64,000 bases of DNA from Streptomyces uncialis (GTDB lineage Bacteria > Actinomycetota > Actinomycetes > Streptomycetales > Streptomycetaceae), in NCBI RefSeq assembly GCF_036250755.1, contig NZ_CP109583.1, positions 2,480,001 through 2,544,000 on the forward strand. Reading direction: 5' to 3'. Within the stretch, counting starts at the first letter, position 1, and each line of letters starts with the position of its first letter. The notes under the pieces were generated by a model that saw nothing but the letters and a program-made list of their open reading frames with translations, had not been told where the DNA came from and did no database searches. This document shows, in pieces, positions 10,117-23,165 of the stretch. The translations under genes were made by a program, and so were the position numbers.

Positions 10117-10446
10117 TCCGCGGTGGAGACGTGCGGCAGGAGCGGCATGGTCAGGGCGGGAGGACGACGGCTTCGCACACCTCGCCCGCCACGGACAAGC
10201 CCACCCGTACACGTTCTGCGCCGCCGACCGGAACCGCGGGTGGCCACCACCGCTGACGACCTCGGCCCCGTGCGCAAGGGCATTCCGGGGCTGCTGGACG
10301 CCCTGCTCGGCGACGGTGGAGAACGCGTTCACCACTTGCACGGCCACCTTGCGAACGGATTCAGAGACGCCGACCAAGGCTGATGGCGATGTTCGACCAA
10401 CACGGCCTGTGGGACCCCACCACCAGCTCATGCCGTACATCGACTG
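10117..10446. other. Stretch without a clear gene, possible gene remnant
   Basis: No complete gene fits. The part from about 10200 to 10385 keeps good G/C third-position bias on the minus strand, in a frame reading VAVQVVNAFSTVAEQGVQQP, without a convincing start or family. A plus-strand reading ending GFRDADQG is an alternative. It could be the decayed end of a gene lost when the neighbouring McrBC island was inserted. Confidence 0.3.
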
Positions 10447-11667
10447 TCACAAGCCGCCTTCACCGGCACCCGTGACCATACGCCGGGTCAGTGCCCGGAC
10501 TTCCGCCAACAGAAGTGCCGGCTGTTGGTCCAGGTCGAGGGCGTGCTGGTGCAGGACCGTCCTGGCACGGCGTACCCGGTGACTGGCGTGCGGCGCATTG
10601 CCCTTCGCATAGACCAGGTGGCCCTCGGTCAGCCCCAACGCGGTGCAGTAGGCCAGCATCTGATAGAGATCCTCGTTCGGATAGCTCCGCCGCTTGTCGA
10701 CCTTGTACTTGGCGTCAGCGACTATGCCTGGCACCCCTGCGCCCGTGTACCAGAGGAAATCCGGCTTCAGGCGCACGGAATCGCTTTCGTCCAGGTGCGT
10801 GCCCCTGGCCTGAAGGACACTCCGTCCGCCGTAGGGCCGCATCGCCTCCCGCAGCGCCACGCACACGAAGTCCTCGTACACGCGGTTCATATCGAAGACG
10901 AAGCTGTCGATGCGCAGCCCGCCGGGCCGATGTTCGGCGGATGATCCGGCCAGAACAGCCTCGGCGAGGTGGAGGGCCTGGTGGTAGCGGGTGTTGAGAC
11001 GGGTCGGTCGCCAGAGCGGGAGCGCCTGTCCCCGTACGACCGGTGTGATGTCCGCCAGCCGTGCCCTCTGGTGCACCAGGCGCGTCCGTACGGCCTTGGG
11101 CACACCTGGAAGGAGCAGCAGACGATCGACGGCGGTACGCAGAATCCGGTTCTCGGCGATATCGGTGGTGAACTCGTCGTATGTCACCTCCACCGGCAGA
11201 GACATGCCGAACCGGCGCCGGATCTGCTCGGTCTCCCGAATGCGGCCCCGTACGACGAAGGACGACTCCTCGACGCTCCGGTAGCCCTGCAGCAGGCCCC
11301 GTCCCAGAGCCCGGTCCGTCTGCCGTTCGACGGCATGGGCAAGAGCGGGGAGCAGTTCGGTGTGCTCGGCAGCATCGACCGTGCCGTCCCGCCAGCCGTG
11401 TGGGTCCTTGCTGTAGCCGAGCAGGAAGAAGAGGCGTGGGACGGGCACCTTGGGGGTGATCCGCACGGTGACCGTCTCCACACCGGGAACCGCGACGGCC
11501 ATCGCCCCGACACGGCTCCCCGCACGCAGACGCCACACTCCCGGCTCATGGGCGTCGGGCGCGGCCTCTCCGAGGATCTTCAGGCCGGCCAGCGCGCGGC
11601 CGACCGCGTCCGGCAGTGGGAACCCCCTGGCAGGCGCGTGCTCGACGAGGGAGACGACGACTGTCAC
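10447..11667 (-). CDS. mcrC: McrC, nuclease subunit of McrBC-type restriction system
   Basis: A 406-aa McrC-family protein. McrBC-type systems cut DNA carrying modified cytosines and so restrict methylated phage or foreign DNA. The N-terminal half is the McrB-binding region, and the C-terminal half holds the PD-(D/E)xK nuclease: RLKPDFLW (Asp303), then IVADAKYK (Asp318 and Lys320). The start overlaps the mcrB stop as ATGA, so the two are co-translated. The length is slightly above E. coli McrC (about 348 aa) and typical for actinobacterial members. All nuclease residues are present, so the protein should be active. Confidence 0.93.
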   Translation of the reverse strand: MTVVVSLVEHAPARGFPLPDAVGRALAGLKILGEAAPDAHEPGVWRLRAGSRVGAMAVAVPGVETVTVRITPKVPVPRLFFLLGYSKDPHGWRDGTVDAAEHTELLPALAHAVERQTDRALGRGLLQGYRSVEESSFVVRGRIRETEQIRRRFGMSLPVEVTYDEFTTDIAENRILRTAVDRLLLLPGVPKAVRTRLVHQRARLADITPVVRGQALPLWRPTRLNTRYHQALHLAEAVLAGSSAEHRPGGLRIDSFVFDMNRVYEDFVCVALREAMRPYGGRSVLQARGTHLDESDSVRLKPDFLWYTGAGVPGIVADAKYKVDKRRSYPNEDLYQMLAYCTALGLTEGHLVYAKGNAPHASHRVRRARTVLHQHALDLDQQPALLLAEVRALTRRMVTGAGEGGL

Positions 11668-13511
11668 TCCGGGTCGAACCCCTCACTCGTCTTCTCTTGG
11701 CCCATGGCCACCGCACGGCGCAGCGCCGGCAGCCCGTAGCGGCCTTCGATGTCCACGTCGTCGCCGTAGTGGTGCTCCTCCAGCAGCGGAAGGATCTTGG
11801 TCCGCCACGTCCGATCCAGCCCGCCGTCCCGGAAGACTCCCGGCTTCATCAGGTAGGAGGGTCCGATCCGGAAGTCGGCGTCATCGATCCGGGCGTTGAG
11901 CGCGTCGAGCAGTTCGGCCGGTTCGGGACCCCTGCCCTCGGCCGCCAGCCAGCGGCGCAGCAGCCCGGCGGTCGGCTCGATACGCGGAGACAGCTCGACG
12001 AAGGCGAAGCGCCGTCGCATCGCCGCGTCCACGAGGGCGATCGAGCGGTCGGCCGTGTTCATGGTGCCGATGATGAACAGGTTCCGGGGGAGGAAGAAGT
12101 CCTCCCCCGAATAGGTCAGCCGAACCGAGCGGTCGCGGTACTCCAGGAGGAAGTACAGCTCACCGAAGACCTTGGCGAGGTTGGCCCGGTTGATCTCGTC
12201 GATGATCAGGAAGTGCGGGACGTGCCGGTTTCCCTCACGGCCGGCCACCTTGGCGAACTCACGCAGCGGGCCGGCGGTGAGGCGGAAGGCGACCTCGTGT
12301 GTCTGGGGGTCCTCGATGGGACGGAATCCCTCGAAGAAGTCCTCGTACGCGTAGGAGGGGTGGAACTGGACCAGCTTCACCTGCTCGCGCCCGGCACCGA
12401 GGTACTCGGCGATCTCCTGCGCGAGGAAGGTCTTGCCCGTCCCGGGCGGGCCGTAGAAGATCAGCTGCTTCTCGTCCTCCACGAGATCCCTGATCTCCTG
12501 CAACCAGTCCACGTGATGGACGTTGAGCCTCTCCCGCAGCTCTTCCGTGGGCCGGGGCAGCTCCACCTCGCGACGAGCGGTGAGGGCCGCGGGCTCGGCT
12601 CCGGACTCGGCTGTGGTGTCCCGGGCCTCCTCCACGAGCTCTTCATCACTGACGCCCAGACCATCGATGATGGCCTTGGACGTCGTCAGGTCGACCACTT
12701 CGTGCTTCAGCAACAGCCGCAGGCGGAGTTCCTCGGGCAGGGTCTCCAGCGCGAAGCCCTCCCTGCCCCATTCCACGGGCCGCCGCAGATTACTGCCGCC
12801 GTCCTCGGCGACGCGCTGCTCGACGCTTCCGGTGACCTCTCCGATGTAGAGGCGGCCCTCGGAGACCGCGCACACCGTGTCCCCCGGCCGCATCCGGGAG
12901 AAGAAGGCATGCAGTTCGTCGACGAGCTGCACCTTCTCGTTGTAGGCAGCGGTCGACTCGTAGTCCTCGTCGACGAAGGTGCGCAGTTGCTCCTTGCTGA
13001 CGCCCTGGACGACCTCCGGCCGAAGCCAGGGCGCGGCGAGCGTCACCCTGCCCTCAGGGAGCCACACCCGCTGCACGAGGTCCGGGCCCGCGGGGTGGAC
13101 GCCCCTCACGAGCCACGCGCGACTGGGACCCGACCAGACCTGCTCAAGAAAATCGGCGAGCGGCCGGCCGTCAGCGGTCTTCCACTCGAGCCATCCGTTG
13201 CTGCTGCGCCCCATCAGGATGTCGCCCGCGGCGGACGGTGAATTGCACTCGACGTCCCGGACGACCTCCAGCCATCCTGGAAAAGTGGTGGTCTCGCGTA
13301 TCGCGCCTTCTGCGATCAGCTTCTCCCGCAGCCTGTGTGAGGAAGGCGTCCGCAGGAGGAAGGAGGGCACGACATCCGGGCGGGCCGGGGACCCGGCGAG
13401 CACGACCATCTTCTGGCTGCCGTTGGTCCCCATCTCGGAGAGCAGCCGCCCGTGTGCCGTCGGCCCGCCGTGCGGCAGGCGCAACTGGAACTCCGGGTAT
13501 TCCTCGCCCAT
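11664..13511 (-). CDS. mcrB: McrB-type AAA+ GTPase of restriction system
   Basis: A 615-aa motor subunit of McrBC. The AAA+ domain shows Walker A GPPGTGKT (354-361), Walker B and adjacent residues IIDEINRAN (436-444), and the McrB GTP-specificity signature MNTADRS (484-490) with the arginines of AAMRRRF. The N-terminal 330 residues recognise DNA or effectors. Residues about 60-130 (GWLEWKTADGRPL) resemble a DUF4357-like fold, and about 190-260 resemble an EVE/PUA-type region (GDTVCAVSEGRLYIGEV). Both assignments are tentative. Related systems use such domains to read modified bases. No methyltransferase accompanies the pair, as expected for type IV restriction. Confidence 0.92.
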   Translation of the reverse strand: MGEEYPEFQLRLPHGGPTAHGRLLSEMGTNGSQKMVVLAGSPARPDVVPSFLLRTPSSHRLREKLIAEGAIRETTTFPGWLEVVRDVECNSPSAAGDILMGRSSNGWLEWKTADGRPLADFLEQVWSGPSRAWLVRGVHPAGPDLVQRVWLPEGRVTLAAPWLRPEVVQGVSKEQLRTFVDEDYESTAAYNEKVQLVDELHAFFSRMRPGDTVCAVSEGRLYIGEVTGSVEQRVAEDGGSNLRRPVEWGREGFALETLPEELRLRLLLKHEVVDLTTSKAIIDGLGVSDEELVEEARDTTAESGAEPAALTARREVELPRPTEELRERLNVHHVDWLQEIRDLVEDEKQLIFYGPPGTGKTFLAQEIAEYLGAGREQVKLVQFHPSYAYEDFFEGFRPIEDPQTHEVAFRLTAGPLREFAKVAGREGNRHVPHFLIIDEINRANLAKVFGELYFLLEYRDRSVRLTYSGEDFFLPRNLFIIGTMNTADRSIALVDAAMRRRFAFVELSPRIEPTAGLLRRWLAAEGRGPEPAELLDALNARIDDADFRIGPSYLMKPGVFRDGGLDRTWRTKILPLLEEHHYGDDVDIEGRYGLPALRRAVAMGQEKTSEGFDPE

Positions 13512-15011: not shown

Positions 15012-16253
15012 TCACGCAAGGTCGGACAGCAGCACGTCGAGGACCGTCTCCTCCTCGACTCGTACAGCGAGTTGCAAGAGGGCCTGCCGCAGATCCGGGT
15101 CCCAGGGAGCTTCAGCCGGCGGCCCCGCGAGTGGCAGGCCATCGGGCCTTGCGAGCGCTGCGGCACGGTAGTCGGCAGCCGTATAGCGCCAGGGCCGCCA
15201 GGGCACGCGACGCAGCAGTGCGGAAGCGATACGGAGCCCGCCCCAGTCGAAGTCCCCGTGGTATCGCAGTGCTGCCCCGCCCTCGTTCAGCCGGCTCAAG
15301 AGGGTGAGCGCCGCGGCGGACGGCTATCCCTGGACGCACACCAGCGGAGCGGAATCCGGCCCGTGGACGTCGGCTGCCGCTGCGAGGACCGCCGGGTTCT
15401 CGCAGATCCACACCGACGGGACGGAAAGGGCGACGGGGCAGCGGATGAGCTGACGGAGAGTGAGGACGGACGGCTCGCCCGCGTCGGCCATCCAGTCCAT
15501 GGCGGGCGTGCCCCGCAGGTTCAGTGTCAGGACCGTCGAGGACAGCTCGTCGCGGAGCAGACCCGCTGATGCCCACGCCTCCCGGCGCCATGCGGCGCCC
15601 GTCCCGTCGGGAAAGCCTGTCAGCGCTCGGATGCCCGAGAGGGTGAGGGTGGCCAAAGGGGTGCCGTCGTCCAGGGCGTGGGCGCCACCGAGCAGCCGTG
15701 CCGCGAAGGCGGGAAGCGAGACGGGCGGGTCTACCGGCAGAGCACTCAGAACAGTGGCGACCTGATCCAGGAGGTCTTGAGCTGCGGCCGACGTGCCGGC
15801 GAGGCGGCGTACCAGGCCGTCGCCCCGGAGCCGGCCCGCCCATCCGGCAAGGCCCGGGGTCCGGTCCGCGAGAGCGTCGGTCACGGCGAACGCCTCTTGC
15901 CAGGCCCGTTCCTCGGCCTGGCGGGACGGGCCGAGCAGGACGGTCGGCCCGGTGAGCGCGACGACCGCTGCGGCCAGGCCCCCGGGACTGATCCCGGAGC
16001 GGCGCAGGACGGCGTCCACCTCGTCGAGCCGGATGGTCAGGGAGCGCCCCCTTCCGGGGGAGCGGCCCAACAGCAGCTCGGCCGCGGCCCGCTGGTCCGG
16101 CATGGGCGCCCTGAGGGAGACGGGTCCGGTGAGAGGCTGCTCACGCTCCAAGCGCCGACGCACCCGGTCGACCAGCCAGTCGAGGGCGGGATCTCCCAGC
16201 AGACGGCGCAGCCGGGCACCGTCGACCGGGCCGGTGGCGGACGTCAGGTCCAC
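15012..16253 (-). pseudogene. jetD: JetD, Toprim subunit of type II Wadjet, interrupted by amber codon
   Basis: TIGR02679/DUF2399-type protein, the Toprim nuclease subunit of type II Wadjet. Wadjet systems bind and cut circular plasmid DNA. The reading frame would encode 413 aa, but codon 310 is TAG (15324-15326), and both sides match the family in the same frame (..PLVCVQG-stop-PSAAALTLLSRL..). The Toprim Glu (ICENPAVL, Glu285) lies before the stop, while the DxD motif (YHGDFDWGG, Asp334/336) lies after it, so a truncated product would lack nuclease function. The family often has Gln here, which fits one C-to-T change. The GTG at 16253 overlaps the jetC end by 10 bases. Read-through or a sequencing error cannot be excluded. 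Confidence 0.88.
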
Positions 16254-19200
16254 AGGGGCTCCGGCCCGGCTGTCGCCTCCGCGAGCGGGCCCGCTTTCGG
16301 AGTCTGCGACCGCACCGGGTCCTCTCGGCGGATCCTTCGGTTGCCGTCCCATTCCCAGCGGGTGACGAGTACCGCCGCCACCTCGTCGATCCGCGAGAGT
16401 TGGGCGATGGCGACGCCGGGCACCTGCGGGTAGCATGCCCACTCGCGCTCACTCGTCATCACCACGTCCAGGTCGAACGCGTGCAGCAGGCCGAGGCACT
16501 TGGCGCGCGAGTCGTCGTCCACTCCCGCGAAAGCCTCGTCGAGGGTGACCAGGCGTGGCGCGTACGGACTGCCGGCGCTCGCATAGTGCGAGGAAGCCGC
16601 GGCGAACAACGGTACGGACACGGCAAGGACGCGCTCGCCACCCGAGGCCGGGCCGGTGGCCGGGACCCAGCGGCCGTGCTGGTGCCGCTCGACCCCGAAT
16701 TCGTGCCAGGCCCGGTAGTCGAGCGCGGCGGTGAGGTGTTCGAGCCAGCTGCCGGAGGTGTCGTCCGACTGCTGCCGGGCGATCTGTGTCTGGAGGAACT
16801 CACCCACCGCCGCCCGGTCCTCCGGGGTCCAGGCGTCAGCGGACTGGCGCAGCCGCTCACGGGCGGTGGCGAGACCGGAGGGGGCTTTGCGGGAGGCCCG
16901 CCAGACCAGCCGCAGCTTCATCCCTGTGGAGGTGGGGCGGTTATCCAGCTCGGCGTTCATGTCCCGCACCTGGCGTTCGGCGGCCCCGATGAGCTCCTGG
17001 AGGGTACCCGCGACCTCGGTGATCAGATGGGTTTCGAGGATCTCCCGTTCATGGGCGGAGAGGATACGGGTGAGTTCGCCGACTTCGGCGGTGAGTGCCG
17101 CCGCGAGCTCCGGTACGGCGCGTCCACGGCCCTGGTAGACGATGTCGACGACCATGCCGTCCTCCACCATCCGGGCGGAGGCGGTGTGCCCGTGCCGGGA
17201 CAGGGTGTCCTGAAGGGTCTTGAGTTCCTCACTCAGTCGACGCTGTACGCGTTCCCAGGCGCTGTCCGAGTCGTCGGTCGACGCCAGCCCGGACTCGACG
17301 GCTCGGGCGAGCGCGATCGCCGGGGTGGCCGCCCAGGGTGCGTCCCCCGCCGTCGGCACCGTCAGATCGGGCAGGGCGACCTTGATCAAGCCGGTGGCGG
17401 TGAACCGCTGGAGTCCCGCGATGGCTTCCGCCCGTGTCCCGGCGGCTTCCGCGAGGTTCTTCTCCAGACGCTCGATATGGCCTTCGGCCTTGCTCGCTTC
17501 CCGGTCGGCGTCGCCATGGCGCTGCCGGGTGGTCCTCTGATCCGCCTCGCAGGCCCGCAGGGCTTCGGCGGTCTCGGTGAGGCGGCGTTCGAGTTCGACG
17601 ACGGCGGCGCCGATGGTGGAGCGCAGGGTGGCGTGCCGCTCGTCGGCCGCCACCGCCTCGCGCCCGGCCTCGTCGGCGCGCCAGGTGAGTTCGGCGGTCC
17701 GCTCCCCGGCCTGCGCGACCTCGGTGCGTTCCTCCTCGGCCTGGAGGGCCGCCTCATCGCGTTCACGCAGGGTCGGCCACAAGGCGGCCAGGGACAAGGC
17801 GAGGGACCCAAGGGCCCGGCGCACCTCGGCAAGGCCCGCGCGGTCGGCCGGCAGACCGAGTTCGGCCGTGGTTCCCGCGAGTTCGGTGGTGGCCGCTTCG
17901 GCCCGCCCGGCCGCTTCCAGGAGGTCGGCGGCTCGCTCCTCGCGCCGTGAGCGAGTGCGACGCACCGCCTCGACGGCAGCGGTCACCTGGGCGTGCGCCC
18001 GGGTGAGCGGGCTCTCCTCGGGTACGCCGGCCAGCTCGGCATCGAGGGTGCGGCGGCGTGCGGCGACCCCTTCGGACCGCGCCACGAGGGTGTCCGACTC
18101 AAGTCTGAGAGCGCCGAGTTCTGCACGCAAGGTGGCGATGCGGGCCCGCCGCGCCGCCTCCCGCGCCCCCTCCCCGACGTACTCGGCGGCCGGTTTGGCC
18201 CAGCGGCCGGTCAGCGGGCCGACCCGGAAGCGCCCGTCCGGCCCCGCCCATGTGTCCGTTCCGCCGTCGCCTCCCGCGCCGATGGCGGCGAGCAGTCGTG
18301 CGACTGTGTCCTCGCCCACCGCCGCGGCCTGCGCGTCGCCGCTGTCCACGGCTGGGCGCAACAGCCCGCCGAGCGAGGGCCCGGCCACCGGCCCGGTCAG
18401 CGGAGCGAGGAGTACGTCGTACCCGTCCGCGGCGAGGGCGGTGCCGTCGGGGAGCACCCAGGCGTCAAGCAGTCCAGAGGCTTCCAACGCCGCCTCCAGT
18501 CCGGCGCGTTGCGCTTCCGGGAGGTGGTCGTGGAAGTCCACCAGTCGCCACAGGGGTGCGCCTGAGAGCCGCTCGCGCAGGCCGGGTGTGCGGCTGAGCG
18601 GCGGTCGGGGACCTCGTCGGCCGCCGGCCTCCAGCATGGTGAGTTCCTCGCGGAACCGGCCGAAACGTACCTCCAGCTCCGCCGTCCGGCGCGCCGCGTC
18701 GGCCGCCTCGTCCGCCAGTCGCGCCGAGGCCGTGCTGTGCGCTCGTGCCGCGTGCACGCGGGCCGGGTAGGGCCCGTCGAGGTGTCGCGTCCAGTCCTGG
18801 AGTTCGTCGAGCAGGCCGACCGGGTCGGGGCAGACCAGCTCGGTCCAGGCGCGCGCGTTCTCTCGTACGTCGTCCAGCAGTGCCCGCGCTGCCCGTGCGG
18901 CTGCTTCCTCCGCCTGGCCTTGCGCCGCGACGGTCTGGTCGAGGTCGGTATCCGCCTCGTCGAGGCGGACGGAAGCCTGCCGCTGCCCCTGGGCCGCCCG
19001 CTCAGCCGTCTCCGCGAGGTCCTCCGCATGGGCGAGCGCACGATGCCCGCGATCCATCGACTGGTCGGCCGCGAGCCGCAGTTCAGGCCACCGCTGCCCG
19101 TCGTCCCCCGGTAGGTCGATACGTGCGGCGGCGGCCGCCTCCCGTGCGGTGCGGAAGGTGTCCTCGGCAAGCCGTTCGGCCGCCCCCAGCCGGTTCTCGG

Positions 19201-20371
19201 CCGTGGTGAGCCGCCCGAGCGCCCGGGAGTGCAGGCCCGCGGCCTGGTGCCGGTCGTCCCGGGCCTGGATGCGGGCGCGATCGGTCCGCTCCGCCTCCTT
19301 GGCCGCTTGCTCCAGCTCCCGGGCACTGCGCATCTCGGGGCCCTCGCGCAGGGCCGCGTCCTGGGCCCGCAAGCGTGCCCGGGTCTCTTCCAGGGCGGTG
19401 ATCCGTTCTTCCGCCGCCGCCCGTGCCTCCTGGGCACGGGTCTGCTGGGCCTGTGCTTCGACGAGGTCCCGCTGGATGTGTTCGTAGCGGGAGTGTTCCC
19501 CGCGTGGGGTGCGGGCGCGTCGGCGGGTGGCGATCCGGGCATAGCGCCGGTAGTGGTCCAGGAAGGCTGTGGCGGCCCGCTCCGCGGCGGTGGCGGCCGC
19601 CAGTTCCTCCTTCTCCTCGTCCAGGGAGCGGAAGGCTTCGGCCACGTCGGCGATGACCGCCTGGTCCATGGGCGGCAGGGCCTCGGTGAGGGCTCGGGAC
19701 AGGGCTGCCTCGTTCGGGCGCTTGGACAGCTGGGGCTGGCGCAGCTGGATGAGCAGGTCGACCAGAGCGCCGTACCGCTGCTCGCCGAGTCCGAAGAGGG
19801 CCTCGTCAACGGCCCTGCGGTAGGTCCTGGCCTGGTCGTACACCATGCCGTGCCCGGTGAGGGCCTCAGCGAGACGGTCCCTGGACAGGGCCGTGCCGGT
19901 GGCGTCGAGCAGGCTGAGAGACGCCTCGGCGGCGGGTGCCGGACCGTGGTCGACGCGCTGACTGGTGAGTGCGTACCAATGGCGTGCGATACCCCGCCCG
20001 CTGACTGCCTTCAGTCCGCAGAGCAGCGTACGGAAGTGCCGCTCGCCGGTGGATTCGTCCACCCTGCCGAACTCGATCCAGGTGTAGCCGAGCCGCTCGG
20101 AGTGCGGGTGCTCGCCGCCGAGCAGCAGATTCCACTCCATCCGCTTGCCCGGGTCGCCGTCGGGTTCGACACGGCGTGAGGTGAGGTCGCCGTCGAGCAG
20201 GAAGGGCAGTGTCAGGGCAAGCACCTTGGACTTGCCGGTGCCGTTGTTCCCCCGGAGGAGCAGGCGACCATCCTTGAAGTGGAACTCCTCCACGTCGTAG
20301 TGGAAGAGGTCGACGAGTCCGATGCGCAAGGGTTGCCAACGGGAGCGCAGGGGATCAGGGAGGCGGGTCAC
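16244..20371 (-). CDS. jetC: JetC, SMC-like ATPase of type II Wadjet (TIGR02680)
   Basis: A 1375-aa condensin-like ATPase, the DNA-loop-extruding motor of Wadjet. Walker A is GNNGTGKSK (41-49). The C-terminal head carries the ABC signature PASGGERVLAVSVPLF and Walker B RLVTLDEAFAGVDDD, with TSEREWACYP following. Between them are long Ala/Glu/Arg-rich coiled coils (about 260-560 and 740-1010), split by a hinge-like middle part. The length agrees with the family (about 1,350-1,400 aa). It overlaps jetB by four bases (ATGA), and jetD starts inside its end. All ATPase motifs are intact, in contrast to jetD. Confidence 0.95.
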   Translation of the reverse strand: MTRLPDPLRSRWQPLRIGLVDLFHYDVEEFHFKDGRLLLRGNNGTGKSKVLALTLPFLLDGDLTSRRVEPDGDPGKRMEWNLLLGGEHPHSERLGYTWIEFGRVDESTGERHFRTLLCGLKAVSGRGIARHWYALTSQRVDHGPAPAAEASLSLLDATGTALSRDRLAEALTGHGMVYDQARTYRRAVDEALFGLGEQRYGALVDLLIQLRQPQLSKRPNEAALSRALTEALPPMDQAVIADVAEAFRSLDEEKEELAAATAAERAATAFLDHYRRYARIATRRRARTPRGEHSRYEHIQRDLVEAQAQQTRAQEARAAAEERITALEETRARLRAQDAALREGPEMRSARELEQAAKEAERTDRARIQARDDRHQAAGLHSRALGRLTTAENRLGAAERLAEDTFRTAREAAAAARIDLPGDDGQRWPELRLAADQSMDRGHRALAHAEDLAETAERAAQGQRQASVRLDEADTDLDQTVAAQGQAEEAAARAARALLDDVRENARAWTELVCPDPVGLLDELQDWTRHLDGPYPARVHAARAHSTASARLADEAADAARRTAELEVRFGRFREELTMLEAGGRRGPRPPLSRTPGLRERLSGAPLWRLVDFHDHLPEAQRAGLEAALEASGLLDAWVLPDGTALAADGYDVLLAPLTGPVAGPSLGGLLRPAVDSGDAQAAAVGEDTVARLLAAIGAGGDGGTDTWAGPDGRFRVGPLTGRWAKPAAEYVGEGAREAARRARIATLRAELGALRLESDTLVARSEGVAARRRTLDAELAGVPEESPLTRAHAQVTAAVEAVRRTRSRREERAADLLEAAGRAEAATTELAGTTAELGLPADRAGLAEVRRALGSLALSLAALWPTLRERDEAALQAEEERTEVAQAGERTAELTWRADEAGREAVAADERHATLRSTIGAAVVELERRLTETAEALRACEADQRTTRQRHGDADREASKAEGHIERLEKNLAEAAGTRAEAIAGLQRFTATGLIKVALPDLTVPTAGDAPWAATPAIALARAVESGLASTDDSDSAWERVQRRLSEELKTLQDTLSRHGHTASARMVEDGMVVDIVYQGRGRAVPELAAALTAEVGELTRILSAHEREILETHLITEVAGTLQELIGAAERQVRDMNAELDNRPTSTGMKLRLVWRASRKAPSGLATARERLRQSADAWTPEDRAAVGEFLQTQIARQQSDDTSGSWLEHLTAALDYRAWHEFGVERHQHGRWVPATGPASGGERVLAVSVPLFAAASSHYASAGSPYAPRLVTLDEAFAGVDDDSRAKCLGLLHAFDLDVVMTSEREWACYPQVPGVAIAQLSRIDEVAAVLVTRWEWDGNRRIRREDPVRSQTPKAGPLAEATAGPEPLWT

Positions 20372-21606
20372 GGCTTGCTGGCCTTTCGCTGCGCGGGCAT
20401 ACGTGAGGTGCCGGGTTCGAGTACGACGGCCTCGCCGACCGCGTACCGGGCGAGGGCTGGGCGCGGTGCCACGCCGTGGGCGGTACGGGAGACCAGCCCG
20501 AGGGCGGCGAGCCGGGCGACGGCCTGCTCCACGAGTTCGGCTTCCATGCCGGGTTCCCGCGCGGACTTGGCCCAGAATCCGCCGTGCTCGGCGGCGAGGT
20601 CCCGGACCCGGAGCCCCAGTTGATGGGTGGTGAGGGGAGCGTCCGAGGCTGCCAGGTACTCGGCGAGCAGCAGCGTGACGTGACCGTGGGTTCCCTGCTC
20701 GGGCATCCGGACGTCGGTGAGGTCGTCGTCCGGGTCGACCATCGCGATGCCCTCCGCGCGCACCTCCGGAACCAGACCGGTCAGCTCGGTGATCCGGGCG
20801 GTGAGGAACCCGCGCTGCCGGGTGAGGTAGCCGAGCTCCGCGTCGGTCAGCTCGTCGTAGTAAAGGACCGGATCGTCCAGGAGCCTGCGGGTCAGCGAGC
20901 GCCGCATCGCGCGGAAGCGCAGTTCGTCGCTGTCCAGAGCGGTCTCGGCGACGAGTTCGGCGAGGCGGTCCGCGAAAGCCTCGGCGTGCACGGTGGAGGG
21001 GCCGCGCCGCGCGGCGAGCAGCCCGGCCAGCACGCGCCGTTCCACGTCGTACAGCGCGTCGCCCGCTCCGCTGACGTACGCTTCCTCGTCGCCGGCCACC
21101 CTCCGCAGCACACCCAGGCTGAGCAGGAGCCTCACCACAGCGGCGAGGTCGAGGCGCTCGTCGCGGCGGTCCAAGGTGAACTGGATGCCCGCGCGGGCGA
21201 GGTGAGGGTCCGCAGCGTCGAGGACTACCTGGTCGGCGAGGCGGCCGAGGGCGATCTGGGCCTCACCTCGTTCGAGGGCGGCGAGGGCGAGGCAGAGCAG
21301 GACGTATCGGCGGCGTGTGAAGGGGGCCGCCGCACGGGTCGCATCACGCGCGGGGTGTGTGGGGTCGCTGAGGACGCCGGGTATCTTGCGCAGCCGAGCC
21401 GCCTCGGCATCCGTCTGGAGGGACCAACCGGTGTTGCGGTCGAACCATTCGCGCAATTCCGAGGCGTGCCGACGGACGAGACGGAACTCGTCGGCGTATC
21501 GGCCGCGGGCGAGCAGGAGTGGCTGCTTCAGCAGGGCACGAGCCGCCTTGCGAAGGTCAGCCGCGTGCTGGCCGTCGAGCACCTCGGCGAGCGGGTTGCT
21601 GTTCAT
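20368..21606 (-). CDS. jetB: JetB, kleisin-partner subunit of type II Wadjet (TIGR02678/DUF2398)
   Basis: A 412-aa DUF2398 family protein. The N-terminal part (LRKAARALLKQPLLLARGRY, WFDRNTGW, RKIPG) is the family hallmark, and the C-terminal half has winged-helix character (ARLAALGLVSRTAHGV). By analogy with MukE-like subunits it should link the JetC heads and the JetA kleisin; that role is inferred from structural work on Wadjet in general. It overlaps jetA and jetC by four bases on either side, which is typical of subunits made in fixed ratio. Confidence 0.93.
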   Translation of the reverse strand: MNSNPLAEVLDGQHAADLRKAARALLKQPLLLARGRYADEFRLVRRHASELREWFDRNTGWSLQTDAEAARLRKIPGVLSDPTHPARDATRAAAPFTRRRYVLLCLALAALERGEAQIALGRLADQVVLDAADPHLARAGIQFTLDRRDERLDLAAVVRLLLSLGVLRRVAGDEEAYVSGAGDALYDVERRVLAGLLAARRGPSTVHAEAFADRLAELVAETALDSDELRFRAMRRSLTRRLLDDPVLYYDELTDAELGYLTRQRGFLTARITELTGLVPEVRAEGIAMVDPDDDLTDVRMPEQGTHGHVTLLLAEYLAASDAPLTTHQLGLRVRDLAAEHGGFWAKSAREPGMEAELVEQAVARLAALGLVSRTAHGVAPRPALARYAVGEAVVLEPGTSRMPAQRKASKP

Positions 21607-23165
21607 CGGTCCTCGCCTCCGTCCGTGAGGTCGATGATCTCGATGAGGTGGTCGGGACCGCGGAAAGCGCCCCCAGCCGTCCGGATCTCTGCCGTACCGC
21701 CGTCGGCGAGCGCGCTGAGCCGGATCCCCATGGAGCCGTCGTTGCTGGTGGCCACGGTGTGGCGCATACCGGGCCGCCAGGTGGCCAGCGCGTCGCCGAG
21801 CAACTGGAGGAAGAGCCCGAAGGAAGCCGGGTCCAGTTCACCGAGTCCGGACAGCCGGGTGATTCCGTCGGTGACGAGCCGGGCGCGTGCCGCCGCGGTC
21901 TCGGCGGCCTGCTTGGCGGCCACCTCGGCGAGTCTGCGGCGCGACTCCTCCCGGCTCTCGACCCTGCGTGGCCTGCCGCGGCGCTCATAGCTGCCCGTAC
22001 GGCGCAGCTGCGGGCTGATCCGCAAGGGCTCGGCGTCGGCCCAGGGAGTGGCCGTGGGGACCGGCAGGGCTGCGCGGGCGGCGAGGGTCCCGGCATCGAC
22101 GGTGAGATGCCGTGCGGGGTACAGCCCGAAGGCGGTGCGCCACAGCCGGTGCCGGGCGTCGTCATCCGGGGCCTCGGCGAACCACCGGGCAAGGGTTCGG
22201 AAGTCGGCGGACCGGTCCGAGCGCCCGGCCCTGCGCTCGTTCAGCGACCGTACGACCGCGAGGAGCTGGGGAATCGCGCCGAGGGCCCGACCGCGCAGCA
22301 GCCTGGCCTGCGATTCACGCCCCTCCCTGCTGATGAACCACGCTGCGAGCCCGGTCCAGCGCCCGTACCAGCGCTGGTACGCCTCCCCCTCGGCGTGGTC
22401 CGCCTCCTCCGGTGAGGCGTCGGCAGCCTCACGGGCAGCGGCTGCCCGAAGCAGCGGTTCGATACGTCCGGCGTCTTCCAGTTCCAGGATCAGGCGGGCG
22501 ATGCGCCCGCCGAGGGTGATCAGATCCTGGATGAACCGCTCCAGGTACTGGATCAGCCGGTCCTTGTAGGCGAGGAACACTTCCTCGCCGACGTCATGAA
22601 GGTCGATGGTCTGCTGCAAGGACCCCATGAAGGCGCGGGCGTTGTCGGCCAGGGCTGCGAACCGGCTGGCCAGTACGTCAAGAGCCAGGTGGATCTTGGC
22701 CCGATCCGGCTGTTCCTCGGCTGCCAGCACGAGGAGGGCCCGCAACTGGGTGATGATGTCGTGCAGGGCGACGGCCTGCAGCGCGCCACGCCGCCCGAGC
22801 GCGTCGTCGTATACGCCCAGGGCTTCCTCGGCCGCTTCCCCGGCCCGGGTGAGCTGGTAGATGAACCGCTTCCGGTAGAAGTCCTCCACGGCGGTGACAC
22901 GCGCGGTGTCGGGATCGGCGCGGAGATTGCCCCAGCCCACGAGGCTCTCCAGCGCCTTCACCAAGGCGTCCAGGTCGGGGGGACGCACCTCGGCCGGCAG
23001 GGCCGTGTACACATCCTCGGGGCGCAGGTGTACGGCGAAGCGCTCCTTGGCGACGACGAAGGCCCCCATCACCTGACGGTAGAGGTCTGTGTTCTGCACG
23101 GTGAGGTGGGCAAAGGGGCTGAACCCGTACGGCAGCGGTTCCCGGGAGATGGTGGTGGCGGTCAT
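21603..23165 (-). CDS. jetA: JetA, kleisin-like subunit of type II Wadjet (TIGR02677/DUF2397)
   Basis: A 520-aa DUF2397 family protein, first gene of the operon. It starts at the ATG at 23165 (MTATTISREPLPYGFSPFAH). The N-terminal region with LTVQNTDLYRQVMGAF and a winged-helix-like stretch resembles MukF-type kleisins, and a helical middle (about 130-260) is followed by the Arg-rich segment RRGRPRRVESREESRRRL. It should bridge the two JetC ATPase heads. About 620 bases of non-coding DNA lie upstream and must contain the operon promoter. Confidence 0.93.
   Translation of the reverse strand: MTATTISREPLPYGFSPFAHLTVQNTDLYRQVMGAFVVAKERFAVHLRPEDVYTALPAEVRPPDLDALVKALESLVGWGNLRADPDTARVTAVEDFYRKRFIYQLTRAGEAAEEALGVYDDALGRRGALQAVALHDIITQLRALLVLAAEEQPDRAKIHLALDVLASRFAALADNARAFMGSLQQTIDLHDVGEEVFLAYKDRLIQYLERFIQDLITLGGRIARLILELEDAGRIEPLLRAAAAREAADASPEEADHAEGEAYQRWYGRWTGLAAWFISREGRESQARLLRGRALGAIPQLLAVVRSLNERRAGRSDRSADFRTLARWFAEAPDDDARHRLWRTAFGLYPARHLTVDAGTLAARAALPVPTATPWADAEPLRISPQLRRTGSYERRGRPRRVESREESRRRLAEVAAKQAAETAAARARLVTDGITRLSGLGELDPASFGLFLQLLGDALATWRPGMRHTVATSNDGSMGIRLSALADGGTAEIRTAGGAFRGPDHLIEIIDLTDGGEDR

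Follow-up and report, generated by a model that had tools for sequence, protein, structure and literature searches.

What becomes of a Wadjet system when the gene for its nuclease acquires a stop codon and the genes for its motor stay open? Wadjet couples a loop extruder to a nuclease, and condensins of the MksBEF type are thought to have been derived by losing that nuclease. In the systems studied, mostly type I, JetABC is described as sensing small circles of DNA, probably through loop extrusion that runs to completion, after which JetD, dimerized via its Toprim domain, cuts the DNA; molecules longer than about 100 kb or linear ones escape (PMC10586767). The operon considered here lies in a 64,000-nucleotide stretch of the genome of a soil Streptomyces (the window, meaning the whole stretch analysed; the genome assembly is 9.26 Mb in three contigs) and comprises the following features, in window coordinates:

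21603..23165, minus strand: jetA, 520 aa, open; matches TIGR02677/DUF2397 and PADLOC JetA2 (kleisin role from the literature)
20368..21606, minus strand: jetB, 412 aa, open; matches TIGR02678/DUF2398 and PADLOC JetB2 (KITE role from the literature)
16244..20371, minus strand: jetC, 1375 aa, open; SMC-like ATPase, matches TIGR02680 and PADLOC JetC2
15012..16253, minus strand: whole jetD, TIGR02679; frame broken by TAG
16077..16079, minus strand: jetD codon 59, GAG; aligns with a TAG of S. uncialis DCA2648
15327..16253, minus strand: 5' part of jetD, codons 1-309; DUF3323 and the first portion of Toprim/DUF2399, with Glu285
15324..15326, minus strand: in-frame amber TAG, jetD codon 310; falls between TIGR02679 positions 278 and 280
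15012..15323, minus strand: 3' part of jetD, 103 codons plus TGA; the remaining Toprim/DUF2399, with D334-F-D336

The four products match TIGR02677, TIGR02678, TIGR02680 and TIGR02679, the PADLOC models JetA2 to JetD2 and the corresponding Pfam domains (NCBIfam E values of 2.1e-163 for JetA, 3.3e-110 for JetB and 0 for JetC), and their genes follow one another on one strand (minus) in the order A-B-C-D with overlapping ends. JetC carries a Walker-A-like GNNGTGKS near its N terminus (read by eye) and a Walker B region matched at residues 1216-1297. The two JetD parts cover TIGR02679 positions 3-278 and 280-382, with DUF3323 and DUF2399 in place, such that the amber interrupts, at a single column, a family match that is continuous everywhere else. 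The locus thus shares with type II Wadjet all of the families, the gene order and the overlaps, and differs in that the one uninterrupted Toprim JetD of such systems is here split by the TAG; judged by these matches, it is a broken member of type II Wadjet. No second JetD was detected in the genome by searches for another TIGR02679 match or for PF09983 (type I JetD_C).

Codon 310 lies in the Toprim domain, after Glu285 and before Asp334 and Asp336, which we take to be the Toprim metal-binding residues. The review on JetD, in the part consulted, names only "conserved acidic residues" (PMC10586767). At this position, 119 of the 120 relatives listed (of 1921 found) have Gln and one has a gap; at the nucleotide level, 110 other loci have CAG (73), CAA (12), TGG (24) or CGG (1), the TGG loci being relatives at less than 43% identity. 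A JetD protein named S. uncialis (P0001) is full length at 417 aa. P0001 also has four additional C-terminal residues, the window and DCA2648 genes ending earlier at a TGA (15012-15014 in the window), as do those of several other species. These results bear out most of what a sequence-only reading of the DNA had described: all four Wadjet genes in overlapping order (with which family and PADLOC matches agree), an in-frame TAG at codon 310 with family-like sequence on both sides, the Toprim Glu before the stop and the DxD motif after it, and a single-base change from a Gln codon (the window is one base off its nearest relative, and close relatives have Gln). The comparison with jetD of related strains that it had suggested returned a sense codon at 310 and, in one strain, an amber elsewhere in the gene.

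That strain, Streptomyces uncialis DCA2648 (L032, G392), is 99.06% identical to the window over 63.5 kb, and the window strain is therefore most likely also an S. uncialis strain; around the operon, identity is 98.8% over 21 kb. The DCA2648 operon lies in the same neighbourhood and, like that of the window, has open jetA, jetB and jetC and an amber-interrupted jetD. The two jetD genes differ by four bases (three besides the window's amber). In DCA2648 (L032 10001-11242), codon 310 is a sense codon and the in-frame TAG stands at codon 59, where 120 of 120 relatives encode Glu; one TAG in jetD was likewise reported when the whole DCA2648 genome was searched separately. The frame stays open to the natural end of the gene after each amber. 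Since neither strain shares the stop of the other and a sense codon stands there instead, the ambers arose independently and, on the evidence of the alignments, are two nonsense alleles of independent origin in what is most likely one species. Once the DCA2648 amber is counted, what looked like a single pseudogene appears as repeated loss among close relatives. The DCA2648 allele may not be null, because a restart at a TTG downstream of its stop might give a 352-aa protein with the complete Toprim domain.

Such interruptions of jetD were rare in the loci and genomes surveyed. Among 80 jetD loci (DCA2648 and 79 others from named genomes, read with up to 10 kb of flank), internal nonsense occurred in DCA2648 only; none was found in the 79 loci of other species, where in-frame stops fell at the natural C terminus. 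In a sample of 392 Streptomyces genomes, jetD exceeded the cut-off in 133, and two of the matches listed contained internal stops: that of the window's own genome and that of G390. In G390, what matched is a remnant of jetD, and the 10 kb read there contained no match to jetABC. Contrary to a pattern confined to jetD, the jetC match of G233 has an internal TAG (G233:C2:152267-155689), its listed jetD having no internal stop, and in two other species (L068 and L095) jetB is split by a frameshift. At a further locus (L079), jetA, jetB and jetC all have frameshift splits, which likely reflect assembly quality because they are so many. Read by eye, one 341-aa relative (P0112, Streptomyces sp. NPDC059556) appears to go out of frame around residue 300, shortly ahead of the Toprim DxD motif, which may be a sequencing error. 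Among the papers listed by searches of the available literature, no title or abstract opening concerned nonsense alleles of jetD that occur naturally in Streptomyces.

Between the two S. uncialis strains, nonsense differences in called genes (46 in the window, 50 in the matching DCA2648 stretch) were confined to jetD, one in each direction. Over the 264 kb common to both (170 and 167 genes aligned), there were four nonsense differences, two of them in jetD and the other two TGA codons in DCA2648 (in genes near 2437765 and 2577115 of contig C1 of the window genome), and net indels with a length not divisible by three affected 8 of the 170 and 10 of the 167 genes. The two nonsense differences outside jetD and the indel counts come from a crude gene caller, and some of them could be due to a wrong start. 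Outside jetD, small indels are thus commoner than nonsense differences, and a broken gene is no unusual difference between the two assemblies. With nonsense events distributed over the four jet genes by opportunity, both would land in jetD with a probability of 0.016-0.023; this is only suggestive, because n = 2 and jetD was picked owing to the first event.

Weighing these observations, we consider it likely that the locus is an ordinary type II Wadjet that recently lost its nuclease, JetD, by nonsense at codon 310, its JetABC genes remaining open. The nonsense codon would end translation within the Toprim domain, past the Glu and short of the DxD pair, and because of that position a JetD ending at residue 309 would be expected neither to dimerize nor to cut. 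JetABC could still load on DNA and extrude loops, but a small circular DNA, once fully extruded, would no longer receive its usual cut; by analogy with the systems studied, plasmid restriction via this Wadjet would be gone in the strain. Of the sequence-only reading's view that the nuclease is lost and the motor intact, the open jetABC and the broken jetD are seen directly in the DNA, and the loss of JetD activity is what we infer from them. If so, loss of JetD would appear to be tolerated or favoured in S. uncialis. Nuclease loss that leaves the motor has a proposed precedent, since MksBEF of Pseudomonas aeruginosa is described as having likely arisen by loss of JetD (PMC10586767). At the strain level, a null mutation of EptABCD in laboratory Mycobacterium smegmatis was found via better plasmid uptake (PMC10586767), and a spontaneous deletion including jetABCD is another known case of Wadjet loss in a strain with better plasmid uptake.

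The sequence-only reading had left open whether the system was switched off, the codon read through or the base wrong; recent loss is favoured here, and the other two explanations fare less well. A sequencing or assembly error that leaves jetD actually intact is unlikely. One base separates codon 310 from the sense codon of the nearest relative, single-base gaps distinguish the two assemblies elsewhere in the compared 21 kb (for example, at 10193, 10361, 14710 and 23283), and some of the indels in called genes could be errors, but the difference at codon 310 is a substitution, in an assembly of three contigs that is rated 100% complete with 0.99% contamination. Moreover, of the genes called in the window, jetD alone is separated from DCA2648 by nonsense differences, whichever strain holds the stop, and the independent draft assembly of DCA2648 carries its own, different amber in jetD, a coincidence not expected of errors falling at random. 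That the amber is read through or suppressed, yielding some full-length JetD and perhaps keeping the nuclease low, seems very improbable, even though both interruptions are TAG, rather than TGA, with open frames beyond. The window genome has 65 tRNA matches with 43 anticodons, all re-found by ARAGORN, and no CTA anticodon among them; in DCA2648, where ARAGORN was applied to the two extra matches (the other 65 have the bit scores of the window strain and were taken as the same genes), these were Leu-TAG and Glu-TTC. TAG terminates 8 of the 46 genes called in the window, or 7 of 45 without jetD's amber (by a crude caller), and the two ambers stand at unrelated codons, neither of which recurs as TAG in the other loci examined. 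Stop reassignment, genome-wide suppression or a conserved recoding site are thus unlikely, given that no CTA tRNA was found and that TAG ends other called genes; low-level natural readthrough may occur. Hardly credible, finally, is a JetD that works in two pieces, the 309-aa N-terminal part and a 95-aa part made by restart at TTG 15299: the frame for the latter does begin 24 nt past the stop, but no Shine-Dalgarno-like sequence was seen by eye before that TTG, the break falls inside the Toprim fold, and jetD occupies a single frame in each of the 80 loci surveyed.

More closely related to recent loss of JetD are readings in which the remaining motor has a use of its own. It is improbable, in our judgement, that jetABC is being kept without the nuclease as an MksBEF-like condensin. 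The open jetABC in both jetD-broken strains and the likely origin of P. aeruginosa MksBEF speak for it, but the lesions appear so recent that retention says little, only three bases besides the window's amber separating the two jetD genes, and constraint on jetC looks weak. Nonsynonymous and synonymous differences from DCA2648 number 3 and 13 in jetA (pN/pS 0.08), 4 and 8 in jetB (0.19), and 10 and 8 in jetC (0.46). Called genes in the window range from 0 to 0.75 and jetC falls within that range, so that it gives no sign of strong constraint since the split and no strong sign of decay, with lesions as young as these; because its pN/pS exceeds those of jetA and jetB, the motor may be decaying too. 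The 3' fragment of jetD was considered as a possible target of selection and set aside, its identity to that of DCA2648 in all 103 codons being uninformative at this divergence. Nor did a clean JetD-less operon emerge from the 392-genome sample. In a comparison by eye of the listed jetC matches over the cut-off with the jetD matches (about ten genomes with weak jetC matches only and no jetD fell outside it), three genomes had no strong TIGR02679 match. In two of these (G163 and G028) a divergent JetD lies next to jetC; in the third (G082) jetC is fragmented and no JetD was recognised within the 10 kb examined. The further proposal that S. uncialis is under selection to lose JetD yet keep JetABC, a snapshot of a Wadjet turning into a nuclease-free condensin, draws on two strains having broken jetD independently and neither having broken jetABC, and we regard it as doubtful.

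Recent loss of JetD might be expected to leave traces in the plasmids that the strain carries, and in Bacillota jetABCD and small plasmids are reported almost never to co-occur (PMC12287153). The 50.6-kb contig C3 of the window's assembly (G000; L143, L182, L183) has several long stretches that are 98-99.6% identical to plasmid unnamed2 of S. uncialis NBC_01624, and its two ends lie side by side on that circular plasmid; by this alignment, C3 is probably a circular plasmid. Against a 3,964-base piece of C3, DCA2648 gave five short matches of 109 bases or less. The 90-kb contig has imperfect terminal inverted repeats and finds its matches in linear plasmids from other strains of S. uncialis. 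Plasmid carriage was rejected as proof of Wadjet loss: a genome with uninterrupted jetC and jetD (G376, classed on those two genes) also has a match to a 42.8-kb plasmid record, given as circular, and plasmid presence is for that reason not diagnostic. Of 16 genomes of two or three contigs in which the jetD match listed is free of internal stops, 7 have contigs under 100 kb, among them G376 and G166, the latter with a 15-kb contig given as linear. The plasmid complement of the window strain thus fits a Wadjet-free strain and is not diagnostic of one.

The added interest of the locus is the independent second break in jetD of a very close strain, which makes the idea of a motor kept and a cutter lost testable with natural strains. 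An intact JetD (P0001) and two differently broken jetD alleles with open jetABC offer natural material to test a lone motor, and such strains could show whether loss of the cutter answers resident plasmids or self-damage; Streptomyces with a broken Wadjet might also be easier to transform. Should further strains share the pattern, it would represent parallel loss of one subunit within a species. If the amber is null, the window would resemble P. aeruginosa MksBEF in having motor subunits without a working nuclease partner; unlike MksBEF, which is described as contributing to chromosome organisation (PMC10586767), the loss in the window is recent, and such a role for its motor would be conjecture. 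The EptABCD null is likewise a strain-level loss of a JetABCD system, in a laboratory setting and another genus, and the passages of the source that describe it do not mention a repeated hit on one subunit.

Two further comparisons concern the JetD fold and the surroundings of the operon. Searched by sequence against solved structures, P0001 had two matches, neither of them to a JetD; JetD was found by fold comparison, in which the type I JetD/MksG structures (PDB 7til and 8b7f) and the topoisomerase VI A subunit (1d3y) showed 14-17% identity and a high rmsd over the whole length, the comparison with JetD/MksG being one of type I with type II and the window copy being truncated. Adjoining the Wadjet operon, at 10447-13511, are an McrC-like gene (PF10117) and an AAA-ATPase gene that looks McrB-like. 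Such an McrC/McrB-like pair lies near the jet operon in 1 of the 79 other loci (L104), and 1 further locus (L103) has the RNA-methyltransferase-like and permease-like genes that flank the operon, each within up to 10 kb of flank; because each of these gene sets recurs in a single locus of the 79, the Wadjet neighbourhood may be an accessory defence island.
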